A DNA stretch of 64,000 nt from Gluconacetobacter liquefaciens (lineage in GTDB: Bacteria > Pseudomonadota > Alphaproteobacteria > Acetobacterales > Acetobacteraceae): NCBI RefSeq assembly GCF_003350405.1, contig NZ_QQAW01000005.1:186001-250000 (forward strand), in the 5' to 3' direction. Every line of letters starts with the position of its first letter. Within the stretch, counting starts at the first letter, position 1. Below, in pieces: positions 23,791 through 32,661 of the stretch. A program made the position numbers and the translations under genes. The notes below the pieces were generated by a model. It saw only the letters and a list, made by a program, of their open reading frames with translations, did not search any database and was not told the origin of the DNA.

Positions 23791-24017
23791 GAAGGGCTCT
23801 CCGTGCGGGCCCGCCGGGCGGGCGAGGGGCCGGAAGTGTAAAACCGGCCTTAACGCGATGATGTTCCACTCTTTACGGTTCAAGGCGGGTGAGGTTCCCC
23901 TTTATGGCCTGTGGGGACGGAAGGTGGCGGTCGTGCATTGTGATTGCATGGGCTGGTCCCGCCATGAGAGAGGATGGCAACGGGCGTGCGTGTTTCGTCC
24001 CTTGCCGGAGGTGCATG

Positions 24018-24587
24018 ATGGCAGACCAGGTTCCGCTTCAGTTCGTGACGCTGGTGGGGAGCCTGCGCAGGGCTTCGCTCAATGCTGCCGTGGCGAAGGC
24101 CTTGCCCGCGCTGGCGCCCGAGGGGGTGAGCATCAGCGCGCTGGGCTCGGTCGGTGCGTTTCCGCTCTATGATGCCGACGTGCAGGATCAGGGGTTTCCG
24201 GCGCCCGTTCTGCTGATGGCGGAACAGATCCGCGCGGCGGATGGGGTGATCATCGTGACGCCCGAATATAATTACTCGATGCCCGGTGTGCTGAAGAATG
24301 CCATCGACTGGCTGTCACGGGTGACGCCGCAGCCGCTGGCGGGAAAGCCGGTGGCGATACAGACCGCTTCGCCGGGTGCGATCGGCGGGGCACGGGCGCA
24401 GTATCATCTGCGCCAGAGCCTGGTCTTTCTCGATGCCATGGTGCTCAACCGGCCTGAGGCGATGATAGGGCTGGCCGGACAGAAGATCGACGCGGAAGCG
24501 CAGGAACTGACCGATGGCGCGACACGCGATTTCCTGGCGCGGCAATTGGTGGCGCTGGCGGCTCTGGCACGGAAGCTGAAGGCGTAG
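24018..24587 (+). CDS. NADPH-dependent FMN reductase (NAD(P)H quinone reductase type)
   Basis: 189 residues. The second of two tandem ATGs was chosen (24018) because GGAGG lies six bases before it. The flavodoxin-like fold shows the FMN phosphate-binding loop GSLRRASLNAAVA near the N-terminus and PEYNYSMPGVLKNAIDWLSR around residues 78-97, hallmarks of the NADPH-dependent FMN reductase/chromate reductase family. Such enzymes reduce quinones, chromate or free FMN, and protect against oxidative stress. The gene is monocistronic between a divergent AsmA gene and a convergent oxygenase gene. A link to the flavin-dependent enzymes at 2-11 kb is possible but not shown. Confidence 0.9.
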   Translation: MADQVPLQFVTLVGSLRRASLNAAVAKALPALAPEGVSISALGSVGAFPLYDADVQDQGFPAPVLLMAEQIRAADGVIIVTPEYNYSMPGVLKNAIDWLSRVTPQPLAGKPVAIQTASPGAIGGARAQYHLRQSLVFLDAMVLNRPEAMIGLAGQKIDAEAQELTDGATRDFLARQLVALAALARKLKA

Positions 24588-24637: not shown

Positions 24638-25510
24638 TCAGGCGGCAGGCAGGGCGCCAGTGGCGCCGTAGCGGACCTGTTTCTGCTTCAGCCAGCGGCG
24701 GTAGGTGACCGAGAGGGAATCCGCACGGGTCGGGATTTCGGCGCGGGCGTCCAGCGGCAGCAGGCGGGGGCGCTGGTTTTCGAGAATGATCCGGTCCTGC
24801 AGGAAGATCTTCTGCTGAAATTGGATCAGGTCGGCCTGGGTCGAGAAATCGTCGATCAGAAACATGACAGGGTGGGCGCGGCAGCGCTCGGGCTCGGTCG
24901 GCTGGACGAACAGGGCGATGACGTCGGGGCGCAGCGTGTCGTTGGGGCAGGTCTTGTACAGCAGGGTCACGAAGGGCGAGGCGACGCGGTAGATATAGCC
25001 CGTGTCCTGACCGCCCACGGCCGACAGCGCGGCCTGCGGCTGGTGGAAACGGCAGTCGGTGGCCCAGATTTCATCGACGTCGCGCCGCGATTCGGTGTGG
25101 TAGCGCAGGACTTCTGTCTGGGGTTCGGCGCCCAGGATGTTGGTGTGGACGAAGGGGAAATGTGCCATGTCGAGGAAGTTCTCGACCACGCGCAGGCCCG
25201 AGGCGTGGACGTCGATCGAGCCGCAGCAGACCAGGCGGCGGTCGGGCTCGTCGGCTTCCGGGATGGCGAGTGGGGTGGCTGGTGGGGTGCCGAGGCTGGT
25301 CCAGAGGCAGCCATAGCGCTCGGCGACCGGCAGGGGGGTGTCGTGTCCCTGGGCGCGGATGGTTATCTGGGCGTCCACGTTGCGCTGGATCGTCAGGTCG
25401 ACGCCCAGCAGGCGGGTATGCGTGGGGGCTGTGCCCAGTGTTTCGAGAAAGCCGACCGCGTGCCAGGAATCCAGCACGGCGCAGTCGTTCTGGTCTGCGC
25501 GATGGGTCAT
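24638..25510 (-). CDS. Ring-hydroxylating oxygenase catalytic subunit lacking the Rieske cluster (NdmC-like)
   Basis: 290 residues with AAGGAG before the start. The mononuclear-iron site is intact: NFLDMAHFPFVH gives bridging Asp114, His117 and His122, and Asp239 (FLQDRIILE) is a candidate third ligand. The N-terminus aligns by eye with Rieske domains (WHAVGF...TRLLGVDL...AERYGCLWTSLG) but the segment that should hold C-x-H and C-x2-H is missing. It therefore cannot carry its own Rieske centre and needs one from another protein; the candidate is at 31355. NdmC, the 7-methylxanthine N-demethylase, is known for the same loss. It is the last gene of the BMP-importer operon, 10 bp after a permease. 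Substrate is unknown. Confidence 0.82.
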   Translation of the reverse strand: MTHRADQNDCAVLDSWHAVGFLETLGTAPTHTRLLGVDLTIQRNVDAQITIRAQGHDTPLPVAERYGCLWTSLGTPPATPLAIPEADEPDRRLVCCGSIDVHASGLRVVENFLDMAHFPFVHTNILGAEPQTEVLRYHTESRRDVDEIWATDCRFHQPQAALSAVGGQDTGYIYRVASPFVTLLYKTCPNDTLRPDVIALFVQPTEPERCRAHPVMFLIDDFSTQADLIQFQQKIFLQDRIILENQRPRLLPLDARAEIPTRADSLSVTYRRWLKQKQVRYGATGALPAA

Positions 25511-25520
25511 GGGATTCTCC

Positions 25521-26459
25521 TTACCGGACGTCGCGGTGATAGGGGACGCCGAGTGCCGCCGGGGCGGCCATGATGCGGCGCATGCGATGCCAGACGACCA
25601 CCGGCACGATGATGAATGCGATCGTGCCCAGATAGGGCAGCATGTTCAGGAAGGCGGGCGCGATCGGCCAGTTGCGGGCCTGCCCGACGAAGGAGAGCGC
25701 GGTGATGAGCCCGAACAGCAGGCCCGACAGGGTGGCGCCGAAGGGCCGGTAGCCGGCGAAGATGACCAGGGCCAGCGCGATCCAGCCCCGGCCTGCCACC
25801 AGCCCTTCCGACCAGACGGGGACGTAGGTGAGAGTGAGGTAGCCGCCGGCGGCTCCGGCGAGGCCGGCGCCCAGTGTGACGTACCAGAAGCGCAGGGCGG
25901 TGACCGGCAGGCCGGCGGCGTCGGCCGCCGCCGGGTTTTCGCCGACCGCGCGCATCGCCAGACCATGGCGGGTGTGGAACATGACCCAGTGTGCCAGGGC
26001 GGGCAGCACCAGATAGATGAGGTAGATCGGCAGGTTCTGTCCGAAGAAGGCCGGCCCGATGATCGGCAGGGAGGACAGGCCGGGGACGGGCACGCGGCCG
26101 AAGGTGGCGGGTGAGGGCACGCCCGCGTAATCATGGCCGATGCTGGCCGACAAGCCGAGGCCGAGAAAGGTGATGGCCAGGCCGCACAGCACCTGGTTGG
26201 CGCGGACGATGACGGTGGCGAAGGCGAAGAGCATGCCGCCGGTCGCCCCCGCCATGGTCGCGGCCAGCAGGCCCAGCCAGGGGTTGGGGGTGGCGACTAC
26301 GGTGATGATGGCGATGACCGCGCCCAGCGACATCAGCCCCTCGACGCCGAGATTGGTGACGCCCACGCGCTCGGCCAGGACTTCGCCCAGGGCGGCCAGG
26401 GCCAGGACGCCGCCGGCGAGGACGGCGGTGGAGAGCATGCCGGTCAGGAGTGCGATCAT
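25521..26459 (-). CDS. BMP-type ABC transporter permease (second)
   Basis: 312 residues from ATG 26459, which overlaps the stop of the first permease (ATGA). It is a multi-pass BPD_transp_2-type permease: LAGGVLALAALGEVLAERVGVTNLGVEGLM at the N-terminus matches the YufQ/NupC-type permease signature, and repeated hydrophobic helices continue to IAFIIVPVVVWH. It forms the membrane channel with the protein at 26456-27541 in importers of nucleosides, purines or related compounds. The oxygenase gene begins 10 bp after its stop, so uptake and oxygenation are likely coupled. Confidence 0.92.
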   Translation of the reverse strand: MIALLTGMLSTAVLAGGVLALAALGEVLAERVGVTNLGVEGLMSLGAVIAIITVVATPNPWLGLLAATMAGATGGMLFAFATVIVRANQVLCGLAITFLGLGLSASIGHDYAGVPSPATFGRVPVPGLSSLPIIGPAFFGQNLPIYLIYLVLPALAHWVMFHTRHGLAMRAVGENPAAADAAGLPVTALRFWYVTLGAGLAGAAGGYLTLTYVPVWSEGLVAGRGWIALALVIFAGYRPFGATLSGLLFGLITALSFVGQARNWPIAPAFLNMLPYLGTIAFIIVPVVVWHRMRRIMAAPAALGVPYHRDVR

Positions 26460-27541
26460 GGCCGGGCCTCCTTGCCGACGGTGATGGGGCCGACAGTAGC
26501 GGGGCGGACCGTCACGGGTTGGTAGTGCGCCAGTTCGTCGGCGATGGCGATCATGAACAGTACCAGTCCGGTGATGGCCAGCACGGTCGAGCCGGTCAGT
26601 TGCTGGGTTTGCAGCACGATGCCGGCATTGAGGATAAAGGCCATCAGCAGGGCGGCGGGCAGCACGTTGAGGCAGGACCCGCGTGCCAGAACCGCGACCA
26701 CGATACCGAAATAGCCGAAATTGTTGGCCAGCCCGCCTTGCAGCCGGTGCACGGTGCCGGCGACTTCGAACACGCCCGCCAGGGCGGCCAGGCCGCCGGA
26801 CAGCAGCATGACGCCCAGGATGCGGGCGCGCACCGGGATGCCGGCGTAGCGGGCGGCCTGCTCGTTCGCGCCGCCGATGGTGATCTGGTAGCCCCAGCGC
26901 GTGCGGGTGGTCAGCCAGGCCAGGGCGAGCACGATGACCAGCGCGATCGGGAAGCCCCAATGGACCACGCCCCAGATTTCGGGAATGCGTACCGGCAGGC
27001 GCCCGGTCGAGGCCAGCGCGCCGGTGACGCGGTCATGCCACGGGCCGACCGCCAGGTAGGTGGTGAGCAGGCCTGCGACGAAATTGAGCAGCAGGGTGGT
27101 GATGATCTCGTTGACGCCGGCATAGGCGCGGGCCAGGGCGGGGACCAGAATCCAGCCCATGCCGCAGGCGATGCCGCTGGCCGCCATCAGTGGCAGCACC
27201 AGCCACGCGGGACCGGGCAGGAACAGGCCGACCGCCGTGGCGCCGATGGCGCCGGCGTAAAACTGGCCCTCGGCGCCGATATTCCATACGCCGATCCGCC
27301 CGGTGACGGTGACGGCCGCGCCGGTCAGCAGCAGGGGGGTGAGGAACAGGGCGAGGTCTTCCAGCCCGAAGCGCGAGCCCACGGTGGAACGGACCACCAG
27401 GTCGGCCAGCAGGCGGGGGTCACGGCCCGAGAGCGCGAGGAACAGGGTGGTGATCGCCAGCGCGGTGACGACGGCACCCGCGCGCCAGGCCAGCCGGCGG
27501 GCCGGCGTGACGGTGGGTTGGCGTTGCAGCGTGCCGGCCAT
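26456..27541 (-). CDS. BMP-type ABC transporter permease (first)
   Basis: 361 residues, a BPD_transp_2-type permease similar to YufP/NupB. It has a first helix around residues 22-42 (AGAVVTALAITTLFLAL), the GAAVTVTGRIGVWNIGAEGQFYAG signature near residue 90 and roughly ten hydrophobic helices. Its ATG overlaps the stop of the ATPase gene by one base (TGATG), and its own stop overlaps the second permease (ATGA), so the three transporter genes are translationally coupled. Known importers of this class carry nucleosides, purines or riboflavin-like molecules. Confidence 0.92.
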   Translation of the reverse strand: MAGTLQRQPTVTPARRLAWRAGAVVTALAITTLFLALSGRDPRLLADLVVRSTVGSRFGLEDLALFLTPLLLTGAAVTVTGRIGVWNIGAEGQFYAGAIGATAVGLFLPGPAWLVLPLMAASGIACGMGWILVPALARAYAGVNEIITTLLLNFVAGLLTTYLAVGPWHDRVTGALASTGRLPVRIPEIWGVVHWGFPIALVIVLALAWLTTRTRWGYQITIGGANEQAARYAGIPVRARILGVMLLSGGLAALAGVFEVAGTVHRLQGGLANNFGYFGIVVAVLARGSCLNVLPAALLMAFILNAGIVLQTQQLTGSTVLAITGLVLFMIAIADELAHYQPVTVRPATVGPITVGKEARP

Positions 27542-29163
27542 CAGGCTTGTCCTCCGTCCTGTGTCGAGCCGCCATGTGGGGCGCCGTTATGGGCCGAGCG
27601 GCCGCCCATCAGCAGGCCGATCGTTTCCATGTCCGCCGTCGCGGCGTCGATCGTGGCCATCAGCCGGCCGTGGAACAGTACGCCGATGCGGTCGGCGACG
27701 TTCAGGAGTTCCTCCAGGTCCTCTGAGACCAGGACTACCGCCACGCCCTGGTCGCGCAGTTCTGTCAGGTAGCGCAGGACGGTGGCGATGGCGCCGATAT
27801 CGAGCCCCCGGCTGGGGTAGGCTGCGACCAGCACCCGGCTGGCGATGCGGATCTCGCGCCTTGCCACCAGCCTTTGCTGGTTGCCGCCGGACAGGTTGCG
27901 GATGGGGGTGGCGAGGTCGGGCACCCTGACCTCGGCGGCTTCGACGATGGTCTGGGCCAGATGGTTGGCGGCGGTATGGTCGTAGAGGCCGTGGCGGCCG
28001 ATCGGCGGGCGGTCATATTCGCGCAGCGCCATGTTGTCGGTGATGTCCAGCGCGGGGGCTAGGCCGCTGCGCAGGCGGTCTTCGGGGATGTGGCCGATGC
28101 CGGCGCGGGCGAAGGCGGCGGGGTCGGCCAGGGGGGCCGGGGTACCGTCGAGCAGGATTTCGCCCGCCGACAGGGGCATCATGCCGGTGAGGACCTGCGT
28201 GAGTTCGCGCTGGCCGTTGCCGGCGACGCCGGCGATGCCGAGGATTTCGCCACCATGCAGGTCCAGCGTGACGTCGCGCAGGGTTTCCACGCCGCGCGGG
28301 TCGCGGCAGGTGGCGCCGCGCAGGCTGAGGACCGGGGTGGGGGCGATGGGGGTGGCGCCGGGGGCACGGGCGCGCAGGTCGCGGCGGACGATCTCGCGTC
28401 CGACCATGGTGGTGGCGAGGCCGGCGGCGGTGCAGTCCGCCGTGCGGTAGGTGCCGACATTGCGGCCGGCGCGCAGGATGCTGATGCGGTCGGAGATGTC
28501 GATGACCTCGTCCAGCTTGTGGCTGATCAGGATCACGGCATTGCCCTGCGCGCGGAAGGCGCGCAGGGCGCGGAACAGGTCGCGCGTTTCGGCCGGGGTG
28601 AGCACCGCCGTCGGCTCGTCGAGGATCAGCAGGCGGGCCTGGCGGGCGAGGACGCGGAGGATTTCCACCCGCTGCTGCTCGCCGGCCGACAGGTCGGCCA
28701 CGATGGCGTCGGGGCGGACGGAGAAGCCGAACCGCTCCGACAGCGCACGGGTGCGGGTTTCCAGCACCTTCGACGAGGCCAGGAAAGGGGTGTCGCGCCA
28801 GCCCAGATGGATGTTCTCGGCCACCGTGAAGGCCGGGACCAGCTTGAAGTGCTGGTGGACCATGCCGATGCCGGCGCGGATGGCGTCCTGCGGAGCCGCG
28901 AAAACCTGGCCGTAGCCGTCGAGGATGATCTCGCCGCCGTCGGGCTGGTAGATGCCGGTCACCACGTTCATCAGCGTGGACTTGCCGGCACCGTTTTCGC
29001 CCAGCAGGGCGTGGATCTCGCCCGGTGCGATGTCCAGGCTGACATCCTGATTGGCGATCACGCCGGGGAAATATTTGCAGATGCCCTGCAATTGCAGGAT
29101 CGGGGGGGTGCCGGGGGGGATCGGCGGTGGCCCGTCGTTTCGGGCATGCAGCAGGTCAGTCAA
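27541..29163 (-). CDS. BMP-type ABC transporter ATP-binding protein (two ABC domains)
   Basis: 540 residues from TTG 29163, preceded by AAGGAG at 9-bp spacing and overlapping the stop of the binding-protein gene; upstream in-frame sequence is only a shadow of that gene. The first ABC domain has Walker A GENGAGKST (55-63), signature LSAGEQQRVEIL and Walker B LLILDEPTAVL. The second ABC domain has the degenerate P-loop GVAGNGQRE and signature LSGGNQQRL, as in YufO/RbsA-type ATPases. It energises the importer formed with the two following permeases. Confidence 0.92.
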   Translation of the reverse strand: MTDLLHARNDGPPPIPPGTPPILQLQGICKYFPGVIANQDVSLDIAPGEIHALLGENGAGKSTLMNVVTGIYQPDGGEIILDGYGQVFAAPQDAIRAGIGMVHQHFKLVPAFTVAENIHLGWRDTPFLASSKVLETRTRALSERFGFSVRPDAIVADLSAGEQQRVEILRVLARQARLLILDEPTAVLTPAETRDLFRALRAFRAQGNAVILISHKLDEVIDISDRISILRAGRNVGTYRTADCTAAGLATTMVGREIVRRDLRARAPGATPIAPTPVLSLRGATCRDPRGVETLRDVTLDLHGGEILGIAGVAGNGQRELTQVLTGMMPLSAGEILLDGTPAPLADPAAFARAGIGHIPEDRLRSGLAPALDITDNMALREYDRPPIGRHGLYDHTAANHLAQTIVEAAEVRVPDLATPIRNLSGGNQQRLVARREIRIASRVLVAAYPSRGLDIGAIATVLRYLTELRDQGVAVVLVSEDLEELLNVADRIGVLFHGRLMATIDAATADMETIGLLMGGRSAHNGAPHGGSTQDGGQA

Positions 29164-30280
29164 GGCCGGTGACTCCTTCGACCGCCCAGTCCCACTGATA
29201 GATCCGGGCATCGTCCATGACCTCGCCCGCCGGCACGCGCAGGCGGCCGGCGGCGTCGCGGATCGGGCCGCGAAACGGGTTGTAGCCGGCCATGATCCGC
29301 GTGCGCATGGCATCGGCCTGGGCTGCGATTTCGGGCGGTACGGTGCGGCCCCACGGGGCGCGGTCCACGCCGTTGCCCAATGTGAGGAAGTGGCCCTGGG
29401 GCTGCCAGGTGCCGGCCAGACGGGCGCGGACCTGGGAGACGTAGTAATCGCGGAAATCGAGCGTGACGGAACTGACATAGGCTTCGGGGCCGTACTGGCG
29501 CATGTCGGTGTTCCACATCGCGGCCTTGATGCCGCGCTGTTCGGCCACGCGCAGATAGGCCGGTTCGTCCATGATGCCGCACAGGAAATCGCAGCCATTC
29601 TCGGCCAGCGCGGTGCCGGCCTGGGTGGCCGCCTGCGGGTCGAACCACGCGTTGATCGAAATCGCCTGCACCGTGACCGCCGGGTTGACCGAACGGGCGC
29701 CCAGCAGCACCGCGTTGGTGCCGGCATAGACCGACGGGATGGGGAACGAGCCGATGAAGCCGATCTTGTTGGTGCGCGTCATCAGTCCGGCCGCGATGCC
29801 GATGACGTAGCTGGCATACCAGTGGGTGATGTAATACCAGCCCAGATTGCCGCTGACGGCGTGGCCGTCGCATTCCATGAAGGCGACGTCGGGCGCGCGG
29901 TCGGAGACGTCGCGGATGAAATCGCCGTAGTTGGAGGTGGCGATGACCATCTGCGCGCCCTCGGCCACGAACTGGCGGAAGATGCGGGTGGCGTCGGCCG
30001 AGTAGGGCACGCTTTCGACATAGATCGTGCGCAGGTTGGGGAAGGCCTTGCGCACGGCCTGGACGCCCTGATTGTGCATCATCGTCCAGCCGCCGTCGGT
30101 GACCGGGCTGGTATGGCCGAAGGCGACCAGCGCGTCGGCCTCGGCGATCGGGGGCAGGAGACGGGGCTGTGCCCGCAGGCCGGGTGGACGCAGGAACCCG
30201 CTGCCGGCCGCTCCGGCGGCCAGGCCCAGCATATGTCGTCGTGATGTTAGAAGCCGTCTGTTCGGCGCGTGCGTGGTCAT
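29156..30280 (-). CDS. BMP-family ABC transporter substrate-binding protein (Tat signal)
   Basis: 374 residues from ATG 30280. The N-terminus has a twin-arginine type signal (SRRHMLGLAAGAAGSG), so export of a folded or cofactor-bearing protein through Tat is likely. The mature part follows the basic membrane protein (BMP/PnrA-like) pattern: VAFGHTSPVTDGGWTMMHNQG, the VIATSNYGDF segment, NKIGFIGSFPIPSVYAGTNA and the C-terminal PFRGPI-x-DAAGRL. The family binds nucleosides, purines, riboflavin or similar compounds. The ATPase gene overlaps its end. It is separated from upstream pncA by 105 bp. Confidence 0.9.
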   Translation of the reverse strand: MTTHAPNRRLLTSRRHMLGLAAGAAGSGFLRPPGLRAQPRLLPPIAEADALVAFGHTSPVTDGGWTMMHNQGVQAVRKAFPNLRTIYVESVPYSADATRIFRQFVAEGAQMVIATSNYGDFIRDVSDRAPDVAFMECDGHAVSGNLGWYYITHWYASYVIGIAAGLMTRTNKIGFIGSFPIPSVYAGTNAVLLGARSVNPAVTVQAISINAWFDPQAATQAGTALAENGCDFLCGIMDEPAYLRVAEQRGIKAAMWNTDMRQYGPEAYVSSVTLDFRDYYVSQVRARLAGTWQPQGHFLTLGNGVDRAPWGRTVPPEIAAQADAMRTRIMAGYNPFRGPIRDAAGRLRVPAGEVMDDARIYQWDWAVEGVTGLD

Positions 30281-30385
30281 ACCTGACCCGGAATGGTCAT
30301 GATTCCGCTTTCCCCTCTCGATGCTCGCCCGCACCGGTCCCACCCGATGCTGGCGTTTCCCCCCGGAAACGGGTCGCCTCCTGTT

Positions 30386-30988
30386 CTACAGGCCGGCCAG
30401 TTCGCTGGCGTGGGCGCGGGTGATGCCGTGCCGGGCCAGGTCCTGCCATGTCGCCTGCGGATCGGAGCCGACCGCGCGGCATGCATCTTCGACCACGATC
30501 GTCTCGAAACCAAGGGCCTTTGCGTCGATGGCGGTGAAGCGCACGCAATAATCCAGGGCCAGTCCGGCGATGAAGACGCGGTTTATGCCCAGTCCCGCCA
30601 GCCACGAATCCAGGCCGGTGCGGGTGGCGCGGTCGTTGTCCATGAAGGCCGAATAGCTGTCGATATCCGGGTCTCGGCCCTTGCGAATCACCATGCTGAT
30701 TCGCGACTGGTGCAGGGCGGCTGTTATTGCCGCGCCGTGGGTGCCTGCCACGCAATGGTCGGGCCAGTGATCGGTCGTGGCTTTCCGCCCGTGGGTGCTG
30801 GCGAAGGAGATGTGGCCGTGGGGATGCCAGTCCTGACTGGCGGCCTGCTGGCCGAAGGGCAGGAGGGTCAGGTGATTGATGACCGGGATGACCGCGTCGC
30901 CCTGCGGGACCGCCAGCGCGCCGCCGGGCAGGAAATCGTTCTGGAGGTCGATGATCAGCAGCGCATCGTGGGATGTGACATGGATCAT
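30386..30988 (-). CDS. pncA: Nicotinamidase/pyrazinamidase
   Basis: 200 residues, strongly resembling bacterial PncA. The first strand LLIIDLQNDFLPGGALAVP carries catalytic Asp. The metal-binding segment is SQDWHPHGHISFASTHG, followed by HWPDHCVAGTHGA, DSYSAFMDN, and the nucleophile region GLALDYCVRFTAIDA with catalytic Cys. PncA converts nicotinamide to nicotinate for NAD salvage. GGAGAGACGCC precedes ATG 30988. It heads the minus-strand unit containing the BMP importer and the NdmC-like oxygenase, suggesting either NAD salvage or deamidation of an imported pyridine or purine-related amide. Confidence 0.93.
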   Translation of the reverse strand: MIHVTSHDALLIIDLQNDFLPGGALAVPQGDAVIPVINHLTLLPFGQQAASQDWHPHGHISFASTHGRKATTDHWPDHCVAGTHGAAITAALHQSRISMVIRKGRDPDIDSYSAFMDNDRATRTGLDSWLAGLGINRVFIAGLALDYCVRFTAIDAKALGFETIVVEDACRAVGSDPQATWQDLARHGITRAHASELAGL

Positions 30989-31080
30989 GGCGTCTCTCCG
31001 TTCGGTACGGTTTCGGAACAGGGATGGCACGTTTCGGGCGGTCGGGCTATCGGGGATTCGGGGGCAGGACGGAGGGTGGC

Positions 31081-31371
31081 ATGAGCCGGTGGGAGCGGAT
31101 GCGCCTGGAACTGGATGGATGCGCCGCGGTGGAGGCCATCGTGGGCTTTGCCCATGAGCGCGCGGCGCTGATGGCGCTGGAGTGCGCGGTGGTGGAGAGA
31201 GGGCCGGCGCGGGTGGTGCTTGACGTGGCGGGGCCGGAGCCGCTGGTCGGCGCTTTCGAGATGGCATGCAGTCTGGGGCCGGCGGAGTGCCTGGTGCCGG
31301 TGGTGCGCTGCCTGCCGCTGGCGGGGGATGACGGGGTTCAGGGGGAGACGGGACATGAGCGTGACGGGTGA
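31081..31371 (+). CDS. Uncharacterised 96-residue protein, ACT-like secondary-structure pattern
   Basis: 96 residues, with a strong ribosome-binding site (ACGGAGG) before ATG 31081. I do not recognise the family. By eye the order is strand (RMRLELDG), helix (CAAVEAIVGFAHERAALM), strands (LECAVVER, ARVVLDV), helix (PEPLVGAFEMACSLG), strand (CLVPVVRCL), the beta-alpha-beta-beta-alpha-beta order of an ACT or ferredoxin-like fold. It is the first gene of the plus-strand trio, overlapping the Rieske-domain gene by 17 bp, and faces pncA across 92 bp. It could be a small regulatory or assembly subunit for the split oxygenase; that role is inference. Confidence 0.65.
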   Translation: MSRWERMRLELDGCAAVEAIVGFAHERAALMALECAVVERGPARVVLDVAGPEPLVGAFEMACSLGPAECLVPVVRCLPLAGDDGVQGETGHERDG

Positions 31372-32038
31372 TGGCGGGTGGTATCCGCTGATGTTGTCGG
31401 CGGATCTGGAGCCTGGCACGGCGGCCGGCAGCACCATGCTGGGGCGCGACCTGGCGGTGTGGCGCGACGGGCTGGGGCAGGCGCATGTGTGGGACGATCG
31501 GTGCCCGCATCGGGGGATGCGGTTGAGCCTGGGGTTCGTGCGTGAGGGGGCGCTTGCCTGCCTGTATCATGGCTGGCGCTTCGGGGCGGATGGACGTTGC
31601 GTGCATATTCCGGCGCACCCCGATCTGTCGCCTCCGGGGACGATCCGGGCGGCGCCGCTGCGGGTTGCGGAGTGTTGGGGGCTGATCTGGGCTGCCGCTA
31701 CAGATGAGAGCGGTACGTTGCCGGAGGATGATCCGGCGCTGGCTGCTGTGCCGTGGGTGCCGGTACGGTCGTTGCGGATCGAGGCGCCGTGGCAGGGTGT
31801 GGCGGGTGCGATCGGGCTGCCGGAGGGGGAACTGGCTGCGGTGCTGGACCGTGATGTGGACGGGCGGGTACTGGCGGCGCTGCTGCCGGTTGGCGAGGGC
31901 GCGTGCATGCTGCACCTGCTGGCGGCGGAACCGGCGGAGGTGGCGCGCCTGCATGATCTGGCCGATTGGGGGCAGGATGTGCGGGCGCGGGCGGAGGAGC
32001 GGGCCGGGCAGGTCTTTCTGTCGGGAGCAGTGGCATGA
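31355..32038 (+). CDS. Rieske [2Fe-2S] protein lacking the catalytic iron site (partner half of a split oxygenase)
   Basis: 227 residues. An intact Rieske motif is visible: Cys50-Pro-His52 and Cys69-Leu-Tyr-His72, within DRCPHRGMRLSLG and CLYHGWRFGADG. The N-terminal domain matches ring-hydroxylating oxygenases. After about residue 135 (VRSLRIEAPWQ) the chain should continue into the mononuclear-iron domain, but the D-x2-H-x4-H motif is absent and the region is only about 90 residues long. This is the mirror image of the protein at 24638, which has the iron site but no Rieske cluster. It overlaps the preceding 96-residue gene and the following GST gene (ATGA). It probably delivers electrons to the 24638 protein. 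Confidence 0.85.
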   Translation: MSVTGDGGWYPLMLSADLEPGTAAGSTMLGRDLAVWRDGLGQAHVWDDRCPHRGMRLSLGFVREGALACLYHGWRFGADGRCVHIPAHPDLSPPGTIRAAPLRVAECWGLIWAAATDESGTLPEDDPALAAVPWVPVRSLRIEAPWQGVAGAIGLPEGELAAVLDRDVDGRVLAALLPVGEGACMLHLLAAEPAEVARLHDLADWGQDVRARAEERAGQVFLSGAVA

Positions 32039-32661
32039 GCGCGTTGGTGCTGTACGACGACGAACTGGACGAGGATTGCTATCGGGCCCGGCTGTTTCTG
32101 TCGTTTCTGGGGTTGCAGGCGCGTCGGGTCGTGGTCGATGTCGTGCCCGGTGGCGAGCAGGACAGCGCGGCTTTTCGGGCGGTTTCGCCGGCCGGGGTGC
32201 TGCCGGTGCTGCGCATCGAGGGACAGGCGGTCTGCGGCGCGGAGGCCGTGTTGCTGGCGCTGGCGCATGGACGGGCGGAATGGTTGCCTGAGGGGGCTGT
32301 CGATTTTGCGCGGGTTGCGCACTGGTTGCAGTTTGCCGGTGGGCCATTGCGCGCGGCCGTGCTGATGCGGCGGGCCAGTCTGTTCGCAGGGGCAGGAGAC
32401 GAACAGTCCGCCCGGCGGCGGGCGGCGGTGGCGGCGTTGCGGATCGTGGAGGACCATCTGGCCCATCGGCGGCTGGATGGGGGACTGTGGGTGGTGGGCG
32501 AGGGGCCCACGGTGGCCGATATCGCGTTGTTCCCCACCGTCGCGCTGTGTCGCGACTGGGGAGAGGAGCATTCCGCCTACCCGGCGCTGCGGCGCTGGGT
32601 GCGGGCGGTGCGGGCGCTGCCGGGCTTCGTGACCATGCCCGGCATTCCCGATTACGGCTGA
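32035..32661 (+). CDS. Glutathione S-transferase family protein (NdmE-like context)
   Basis: 208 residues. The N-terminal thioredoxin-like domain has LYDDELDEDCYRARLFL, with Cys15 near the usual active-site position, and the cis-Pro loop AGVLPVLRIEG near residue 57. The C-terminal all-helical domain has the conserved GEGPTVADIALFPTVAL segment. It is coupled to the Rieske-domain gene by an ATGA overlap. In the caffeine-degrading Pseudomonas system, the GST-like NdmE is needed to hold NdmC and NdmD together. Gene context here suggests the same structural role, but enzymatic glutathione transfer is not excluded. Its end overlaps the convergent CNNM/CBS gene by 10 bp. Confidence 0.85.
   Translation: MSALVLYDDELDEDCYRARLFLSFLGLQARRVVVDVVPGGEQDSAAFRAVSPAGVLPVLRIEGQAVCGAEAVLLALAHGRAEWLPEGAVDFARVAHWLQFAGGPLRAAVLMRRASLFAGAGDEQSARRRAAVAALRIVEDHLAHRRLDGGLWVVGEGPTVADIALFPTVALCRDWGEEHSAYPALRRWVRAVRALPGFVTMPGIPDYG

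Follow-up and report, generated by a model that had tools for sequence, protein, structure and literature searches.

A probable Rieske oxygenase divided between two genes of Gluconacetobacter liquefaciens and its kinship with the NdmCDE type

Introduction

Can two genes that each encode a different half of a Rieske oxygenase give rise to one enzyme? This question is raised by a stretch of 64,000 nucleotides from Gluconacetobacter liquefaciens (assembly GCF_003350405.1, contig NZ_QQAW01000005.1, positions 186,001 to 250,000 of the forward strand; hereafter the window), in which translation of the open reading frames (ORFs) gave a 290-residue protein on the minus strand (24638..25510, the catalytic half) and a 227-residue protein on the plus strand (31355..32038, the Rieske half). 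A first-pass annotation had read them as copies of a duplicated oxygenase that lost complementary halves and now act as one enzyme, and had set them apart from NdmC/NdmD of caffeine degradation. According to PMC4408171, no oxygenase had been reported before NdmCDE in which the Rieske domain is detached and fused to the reductase. On the evidence below, the two proteins are likely to be the catalytic and electron-transfer subunits of a single heteromeric enzyme, a Rieske oxygenase belonging to the NdmC family, which would have arisen by duplication of an ancestral alpha subunit and complementary losses. From the same evidence we infer that the two would form a complex, that electrons would pass from one to the other, that a protein resembling glutathione S-transferase (GST) would hold them together and that the substrate would be a modified purine.

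Two proteins with complementary metal sites

The catalytic half gave Pfam matches to VanA_C (1.4e-19) and, at a weak level, to KshA_C; none of its matches was to a Rieske model. An alignment of 58 rows (A3) was made of the window protein and 57 of 80 catalytic halves after thinning at 0.9 similarity, and N111, D114, H117, H122 and D239 were invariant in all of them. We take H117, H122 and D239 to be the iron ligands of the 2-His-1-Asp triad and D114 to be the bridging aspartate. None of the 58 sequences contained both Cys-His motifs of a Rieske site in the first 110 residues, and a lone CxH or Cx2H was seen in three; a hidden Rieske motif in the catalytic half is therefore ruled out. The Rieske half matched the Rieske model only (3.2e-23). 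In a 62-row alignment (A4; the window protein and 61 of 78 Rieske halves, thinned at 0.9 to 64, with L121, L122 and L123 left out), C50, H52, C69 and H72 (CxH...CxxH) were kept in 62/62 sequences and the iron motif DxxHxxxxH in 0/62. Identity to the window proteins reaches down to 53% in the catalytic set and 33% in the Rieske set. By Pfam and motifs, neither half thus has both metal centres in one chain, as a Rieske oxygenase alpha subunit does. These results agree with the first-pass annotation, which had assigned Asp114/His117/His122 without Rieske ligands to one protein and Cys50/His52/Cys69/His72 without D-x2-H-x4-H to the other.

The same annotation had noticed traces of the lost half in each protein, and these were recovered. 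The catalytic half aligned to residues 5-46 (weakly, 5.9 bits) and 109-333 of SxtT, the cluster-binding segment being skipped, and its AlphaFold2 model aligned over nearly the full length of complete oxygenases, with the retained domains confidently folded. The Rieske half aligned by sequence to residues 11-128 of SxtDIOX. Its AlphaFold2 model fitted complete oxygenases over nearly its whole length and contained a second folded region besides the Rieske domain, a shrunken helix-grip remnant (about residues 134-227) in which H187 and R210 were invariant in the 62 aligned sequences. In the predicted folds, the internal gaps of the two halves are complementary, and each half spans almost a whole Rieske oxygenase. 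Direct sequence comparison of the remnant with the catalytic half gave a weak match (hhalign probability 7%, P 0.0048); the case for a catalytic-domain remnant is therefore based on the fold alignment and on the comparison with NdmD given below. Among proteins of solved structure, SxtT and SxtDIOX (GxtA) of the saxitoxin pathway gave the top sequence matches of both halves and the top structural match of the catalytic half; they differ from the pair in carrying both metal centres in a single chain.

Relationship to NdmC, NdmD and NdmE

Plasmid ndm-type clusters were used as stand-ins for the cluster of Pseudomonas putida CBB5. In the plasmid locus of P. putida MT178, two oxygenase genes matched the solved NdmB and NdmA over their full length (785 and 765 bits, respectively), and this cluster was therefore regarded as an ndm cluster. 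The NdmC-type protein of MT178 was 44.8% identical to the catalytic half and five other NdmC-type proteins were 46-50% identical (274-297 columns for the six); identity to NdmA and NdmB was only 25% and 23%, respectively. The NdmC-type proteins of four ndm-type clusters, at 281-284 residues, are also similar in length to the catalytic half. In a 56-row tree, 21 whole oxygenases were split from 29 catalytic halves and the 6 NdmC-type proteins with a support of 100/100; L001 and L002, in which no DxxHxxxxH was seen, were left out of this tree and of the Rieske tree.

In five NdmD-type proteins, the region between the Rieske domain and the reductase matched the remnant of the Rieske half (hhalign probability 87%, P 3.8e-6). 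NdmD-type proteins begin, like the Rieske half of the window, with a Rieske domain followed by such a remnant. Rieske, NAD-binding and Fer2 domains were confirmed by Pfam in two of the NdmD-type proteins. In the Rieske tree, the NdmD domains were sister to the stand-alone Rieske half of Variovorax (98/91). In addition, the window GST was 35-38% identical to the GSTs of three ndm-type clusters, and where an ndm-type cluster has a catalytic half without a stand-alone Rieske partner, a Rieske-reductase fusion is present instead.

The genes of the window thus include an NdmC-related subunit lacking the Rieske cluster and a GST-like partner, and no Rieske-reductase fusion. Based on the identity to NdmC (45-50%), the overlapping gene of an NdmE-like GST and the likeness of the NdmD N-terminus to the Rieske half, it is well supported that the split pair, whose metal sites are conserved, represents a two-chain and unfused version of the NdmC/NdmD/NdmE design. 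NdmCDE of P. putida CBB5, a complex for N7-demethylation of 7-methylxanthine (PMC4408171, PMC8055839 and PMC13237722), has in common with the pair a catalytic subunit lacking the Rieske cluster, a GST-like partner and a Rieske cluster in another protein. It differs in that the Rieske half is here encoded by a separate gene without reductase fusion, and in its surroundings: a BMP-type ATP-binding cassette (ABC) transporter and an acylphosphatase-like small protein are found here (with deaminases in related loci), not ndmA/ndmB and formaldehyde genes. The contrast that had been drawn between this pair and NdmC/NdmD accordingly has to be given up, since the catalytic half groups with NdmC, the GST is NdmE-like and NdmD begins with the Rieske-plus-remnant architecture.

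Co-occurrence of the two halves

In an order-level sample of 150 genomes including that of G. liquefaciens, full-length catalytic halves were present in 21; matches of at least 111 bits were counted as Rieske halves and were present in 22, with 21 genomes shared (Fisher p about 1e-24, kinship not corrected for). A class-level sample of 385 genomes, again including its own, contained eight with a catalytic half (E at most 1e-30), and all eight had a Rieske half on the same contig (at least 89.7 bits together with a catalytic half on that contig). Both limits for Rieske halves were set after viewing the tables, and four class-sample genomes at 82.6-89.4 bits, with open frames of 342-427 residues, were read as having whole oxygenases. 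Both halves were found at 80/80 named loci on 75 contigs, which are the best 80 of 550 relatives found and therefore lean towards close kin; the Rieske half lay within about 10 kb in 78 and elsewhere in the genome in 2. These loci belong to 30 named genera, with 16 lacking a genus name, and are distributed over Hyphomicrobiales (59), Acetobacterales (12), Rhodobacterales (7) and Rhodospirillales (1), with one unplaced.

In Mesorhizobium sp. BR1-1-16 and Kaistia dalseonensis, the distant loci are second catalytic halves, and the Rieske half and the first catalytic half are located elsewhere in the genome. In a further genome (G100), the catalytic half is on a different contig from the Rieske half and GST, and both are kept. 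These results confirm that the paired occurrence of the halves (80/80 loci) is far beyond chance, and, as far as can be read from sequence, many alphaproteobacteria have retained both parts of the putative divided enzyme. The occurrence of either gene without the other, which had been named beforehand as a finding against the proposal, was rare in the samples searched, with one clear exception (G141, see Discussion). A decayed locus was seen in G114 (L207, C1:28000-42000), where short catalytic, Rieske and GST remnants lie side by side and the BMP transporter and deaminase genes look full-length.

One Rieske half with two catalytic halves

Twelve genomes were chosen because they have a second type of catalytic half. 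All 12 contained exactly two catalytic halves (E 1e-30 or better) and one Rieske half (142-179 bits) between the two; other Rieske matches in these genomes (E 1e-15 or better) were at most 80 bits and lay in frames of more than 400 residues. In Bradyrhizobium (L194 and L210), the gene order was catalytic half 1, deaminase, transporter, a group of small protein, Rieske half and GST, LysR regulator, amidohydrolase and catalytic half 2. Likewise, pSymA of Sinorhizobium meliloti carries one NdmD-type fusion beside two NdmC-type genes. The earlier statement that the two proteins act as one enzyme is consequently too narrow, one Rieske half being found with two catalytic halves in 12/12 chosen genomes; that a pair makes up a single active enzyme is what we infer.

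A fusion of another kind was found in Variovorax paradoxus (CP063167; L076:10638-12452). This 604-residue protein has an N-terminal catalytic half and C-terminal NAD-binding/Fer2 domains, with a separate Rieske half and GST adjoining, and is thereby the mirror image of the NdmD fusion. Tentatively, and at somewhat less than even chances, two interchangeable catalytic subunits may share one dedicated Rieske subunit that plugs into either as the electron module, each catalytic subunit standing by its own purine deaminase (one of the guanine/8-oxoguanine type, the other an adenine-type-like amidohydrolase). The GST and the acylphosphatase-like protein would then be assembly factors, NdmD a later Rieske-reductase fusion and the Variovorax protein its mirror fusion.

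Two related arrangements were also observed. A metagenome-assembled genome of Xanthobacteraceae (L123) has one Rieske half, one GST and two catalytic halves within 4.7 kb. Plasmid pKNA08 of Komagataeibacter nataicola (L075:6704-8055) has a very diverged pair of Rieske-less and Rieske proteins (273 and 178 residues) with a GST and a VanB-type reductase, adjoining a normal split pair.

Gene organization and neighbouring genes

The catalytic half (24638..25510), assigned as an NdmC-type oxygenase subunit by Pfam, alignment, tree and fold model, lies 10 nucleotides downstream of a set of transporter genes on the same minus strand. These encode two ABC transporter permeases (BPD_transp_2; 25521..26462 and 26456..27541), an ATPase with two ABC_tran stretches whose start is not fixed (27541..29100) and a BMP/PnrA-type substrate-binding protein (29156..30343). 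A BMP gene was found at more than 100 bits in 61/80 related loci. In the dg5 plasmid of Leptolyngbya boryana (L196:2189-3163), an unsplit oxygenase, 36% identical to the catalytic half over 227 columns, directly follows two permeases related to those of the window (33% and 39%) and is possibly a relative that was never split but has kept a similar neighbourhood. An isochorismatase-family gene (30386-31021, minus strand; nicotinamidase-like by eye) separates the transporter genes from the Rieske operon, and a relative of it was present in 5/80 related loci.

On the plus strand, a small acylphosphatase-like protein (31081..31371; longest ORF from 31024) overlaps the Rieske half (31355..32038) by 17 nucleotides, and the start of the GST-like, NdmE-like gene (32035..32661) overlaps the stop of the Rieske half (ATGA). 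A GST was found at more than 60 bits in 76/80 loci. An ORF related to the small protein was found in 68/80 loci and was on the strand of the Rieske half in 66 of the 68; with starts taken from the longest frame, its overlap with the Rieske half was exactly 4 nucleotides in 17/68. The small protein of the window and its relative in L069 gave no Pfam match to PF00708. Three relatives annotated as acylphosphatase, in the clusters L072, L079 and L080, scored 30.1 and 23.7 bits (over the curated cut-off) and 15.2 bits (under it), and these three found the same ORFs in 64-66 of the 68 loci. The flavin reductase gene at 23889-24587 was rejected as a conserved partner, there being no match above 30 bits in the 80 loci.

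A deaminase-type amidohydrolase scored more than 250 bits against one of three queries in 37/80 loci. Four amidohydrolases were compared with NCBIfam cut-offs: two passed that of 8-oxoguanine deaminase (612.9 and 669 vs 532), one passed that of guanine deaminase (419.9 vs 375.4) and one passed neither (best 364 vs 532). The amidohydrolase beside catalytic half 2 passed no cut-off, and its best solved match was methylthioadenosine/S-adenosylhomocysteine deaminase. The neighbouring genes thus point to purines, probably with guanine-like and perhaps adenine-like substrates, and the putative divided enzyme would probably serve to degrade modified purines.

Elsewhere in the genome of G. liquefaciens, two FAD_binding_6 matches were found: one is a flavohaemoglobin-like protein that contains a globin, the other an FAD/NAD-binding protein that we read as resembling a ferredoxin-NADP reductase. 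Just past the end of the window, a weak Rieske match (1.4e-4) lies in a 277-residue open frame (L008, G000:C5:253619-253795).

Discussion

The reading of the pair as one heteromeric oxygenase implies the following course. An ancestral oxygenase alpha subunit would have been duplicated; one copy would have dropped that portion of the Rieske domain which binds the [2Fe-2S] cluster, the other the iron-binding core of the catalytic domain, with the outer scaffold kept in both. As each protein keeps a basal Rieske scaffold at the N-terminus and a helix-grip scaffold at the C-terminus, duplication with complementary loss, as the first-pass annotation had proposed, fits better than simple gene fission. 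In ordinary alpha-3 trimers, electrons pass between neighbouring subunits, the Rieske cluster of one lying beside the iron of the next. By analogy, the Rieske half would hand electrons directly to the non-haem iron of the catalytic half via the conserved bridging Asp114, and the GST-like protein would keep the parts together, as NdmE is proposed to do. The substrate, most likely a modified purine, would be imported by the adjacent BMP-type ABC transporter and undergo N-demethylation or ring hydroxylation.

Several observations weigh against this explanation. The catalytic tree carries long-branch warnings, including one for a whole oxygenase drawn beside the group of halves and NdmC. In the Rieske tree, the NdmD domains and the stand-alone Variovorax half were placed among whole oxygenases (97/86). 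The Rieske halves did not come together as one clade in this tree, which also carries a long-branch warning and, with 112 columns, is too short to decide on a single origin. A single clade of all Rieske halves and NdmD was not rejected (p-AU 0.56, or 0.25 with the longest-branched half included). As to co-occurrence, physical linkage and kinship account for part of it. In G141 (L206, C45), a diverged Rieske half adjoins a transporter with no catalytic half or GST in 15 kb and no catalytic match elsewhere, and on plasmid pRA01 of Roseicitreum antarcticum a catalytic half (L071:9974-10840, 60% identical) has no Rieske half within 10 kb. As to context, a scan of 18 kb of the window surrounding the genes gave no deaminase match. 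Formaldehyde genes, considered as a mark of demethylation, were above 60 bits in 0/80 loci (above 30 bits in 2), and a dedicated VanB-type reductase beside the split genes was found above 30 bits in 0/80 with one query. Demethylation and the electron donor are therefore without contextual support.

Hydroxylation of the purine ring (e.g. at C8, the reaction on xanthine for which HpxD is annotated) in place of N-demethylation deserves consideration, and we regard it as possible, at about one chance in three. The 8-oxoguanine deaminase that two of the tested clusters contain and the lack of formaldehyde-detoxification genes above 60 bits speak for it, as does HpxD itself (HpxD/HpxE, xanthine hydroxylase), a Rieske oxygenase that acts on a purine by annotation and shows partial similarity (29%). 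On the other hand, HpxD is an unsplit oxygenase that carries a Rieske motif itself and has an adjoining VanB-type reductase gene, and it sits in a separate branch of whole oxygenases, whereas the nearest relatives of studied function are the NdmC-type N7-demethylases (45-50%).

It is improbable that the 227-residue protein is an ordinary Rieske-type ferredoxin or carrier for other oxygenases, with the catalytic half using another donor and the proximity of the genes reflecting a shared purine pathway only. In favour of this reading, the genome has eight Rieske matches in all, several in oxygenase-length frames, and a 364-residue NAD_binding_1/Fer2 protein (L201) is encoded on the contig of another of these matches. 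CarAc-like ferredoxins do share the Rieske [2Fe-2S] domain with the Rieske half, but are about 100-115 residues long and have no catalytic-domain remnant. The 227-residue protein is not a Rieske domain alone, having a second folded region with the invariant H187 and R210, and it scores far higher against an oxygenase alpha subunit (97.6 bits with SxtDIOX) than against a ferredoxin (25.5 bits with CarAc), so that a plain ferredoxin is disfavoured. Its near-complete co-occurrence with the catalytic half, including the three genomes in which the latter lies away from it, also argues against a carrier for others. That one or both halves are functionless decaying copies is very improbable: each lacks a domain normally needed by the family and G114 holds a decayed locus, but the metal ligands and many other residues are invariant over 58 and 62 sequences, even at the low identities given above, the overlapping gene organization is kept and the models show the retained domains folded with confidence.

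Chlorophyllide a oxygenase of Micromonas pusilla is eukaryotic and belongs to another oxygenase subfamily, and we know of no link between it and a GST or purines. Its likeness to the present pair is one of arrangement only, the Rieske and iron centres being in two chains. PMC9615114 describes the enzyme in two polypeptide chains that were active in vitro, which gives a precedent for a Rieske oxygenase of two chains. In the open-licence literature searched, outside which most subscription papers lie, no unfused NdmC-type pair was named. Nor did we find there a stand-alone Rieske half that retains a vestige of the catalytic domain, one Rieske half serving alongside two catalytic halves, the accompanying small protein, or fusions in both directions.

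With the split pair, nature provides what may be seen as the NdmCDE complex before fusion, which suggests an evolutionary route from duplication through complementary loss to optional fusion in either direction. With the metal centres on separately purifiable chains that could be metallated, mutated or swapped independently, the accepted electron path between subunits would become testable. In addition, a testable role in purine degradation is suggested for alphaproteobacterial genes that are labelled 'aromatic ring-hydroxylating dioxygenase subunit alpha' and 'Rieske (2Fe-2S) protein' in plasmid records.

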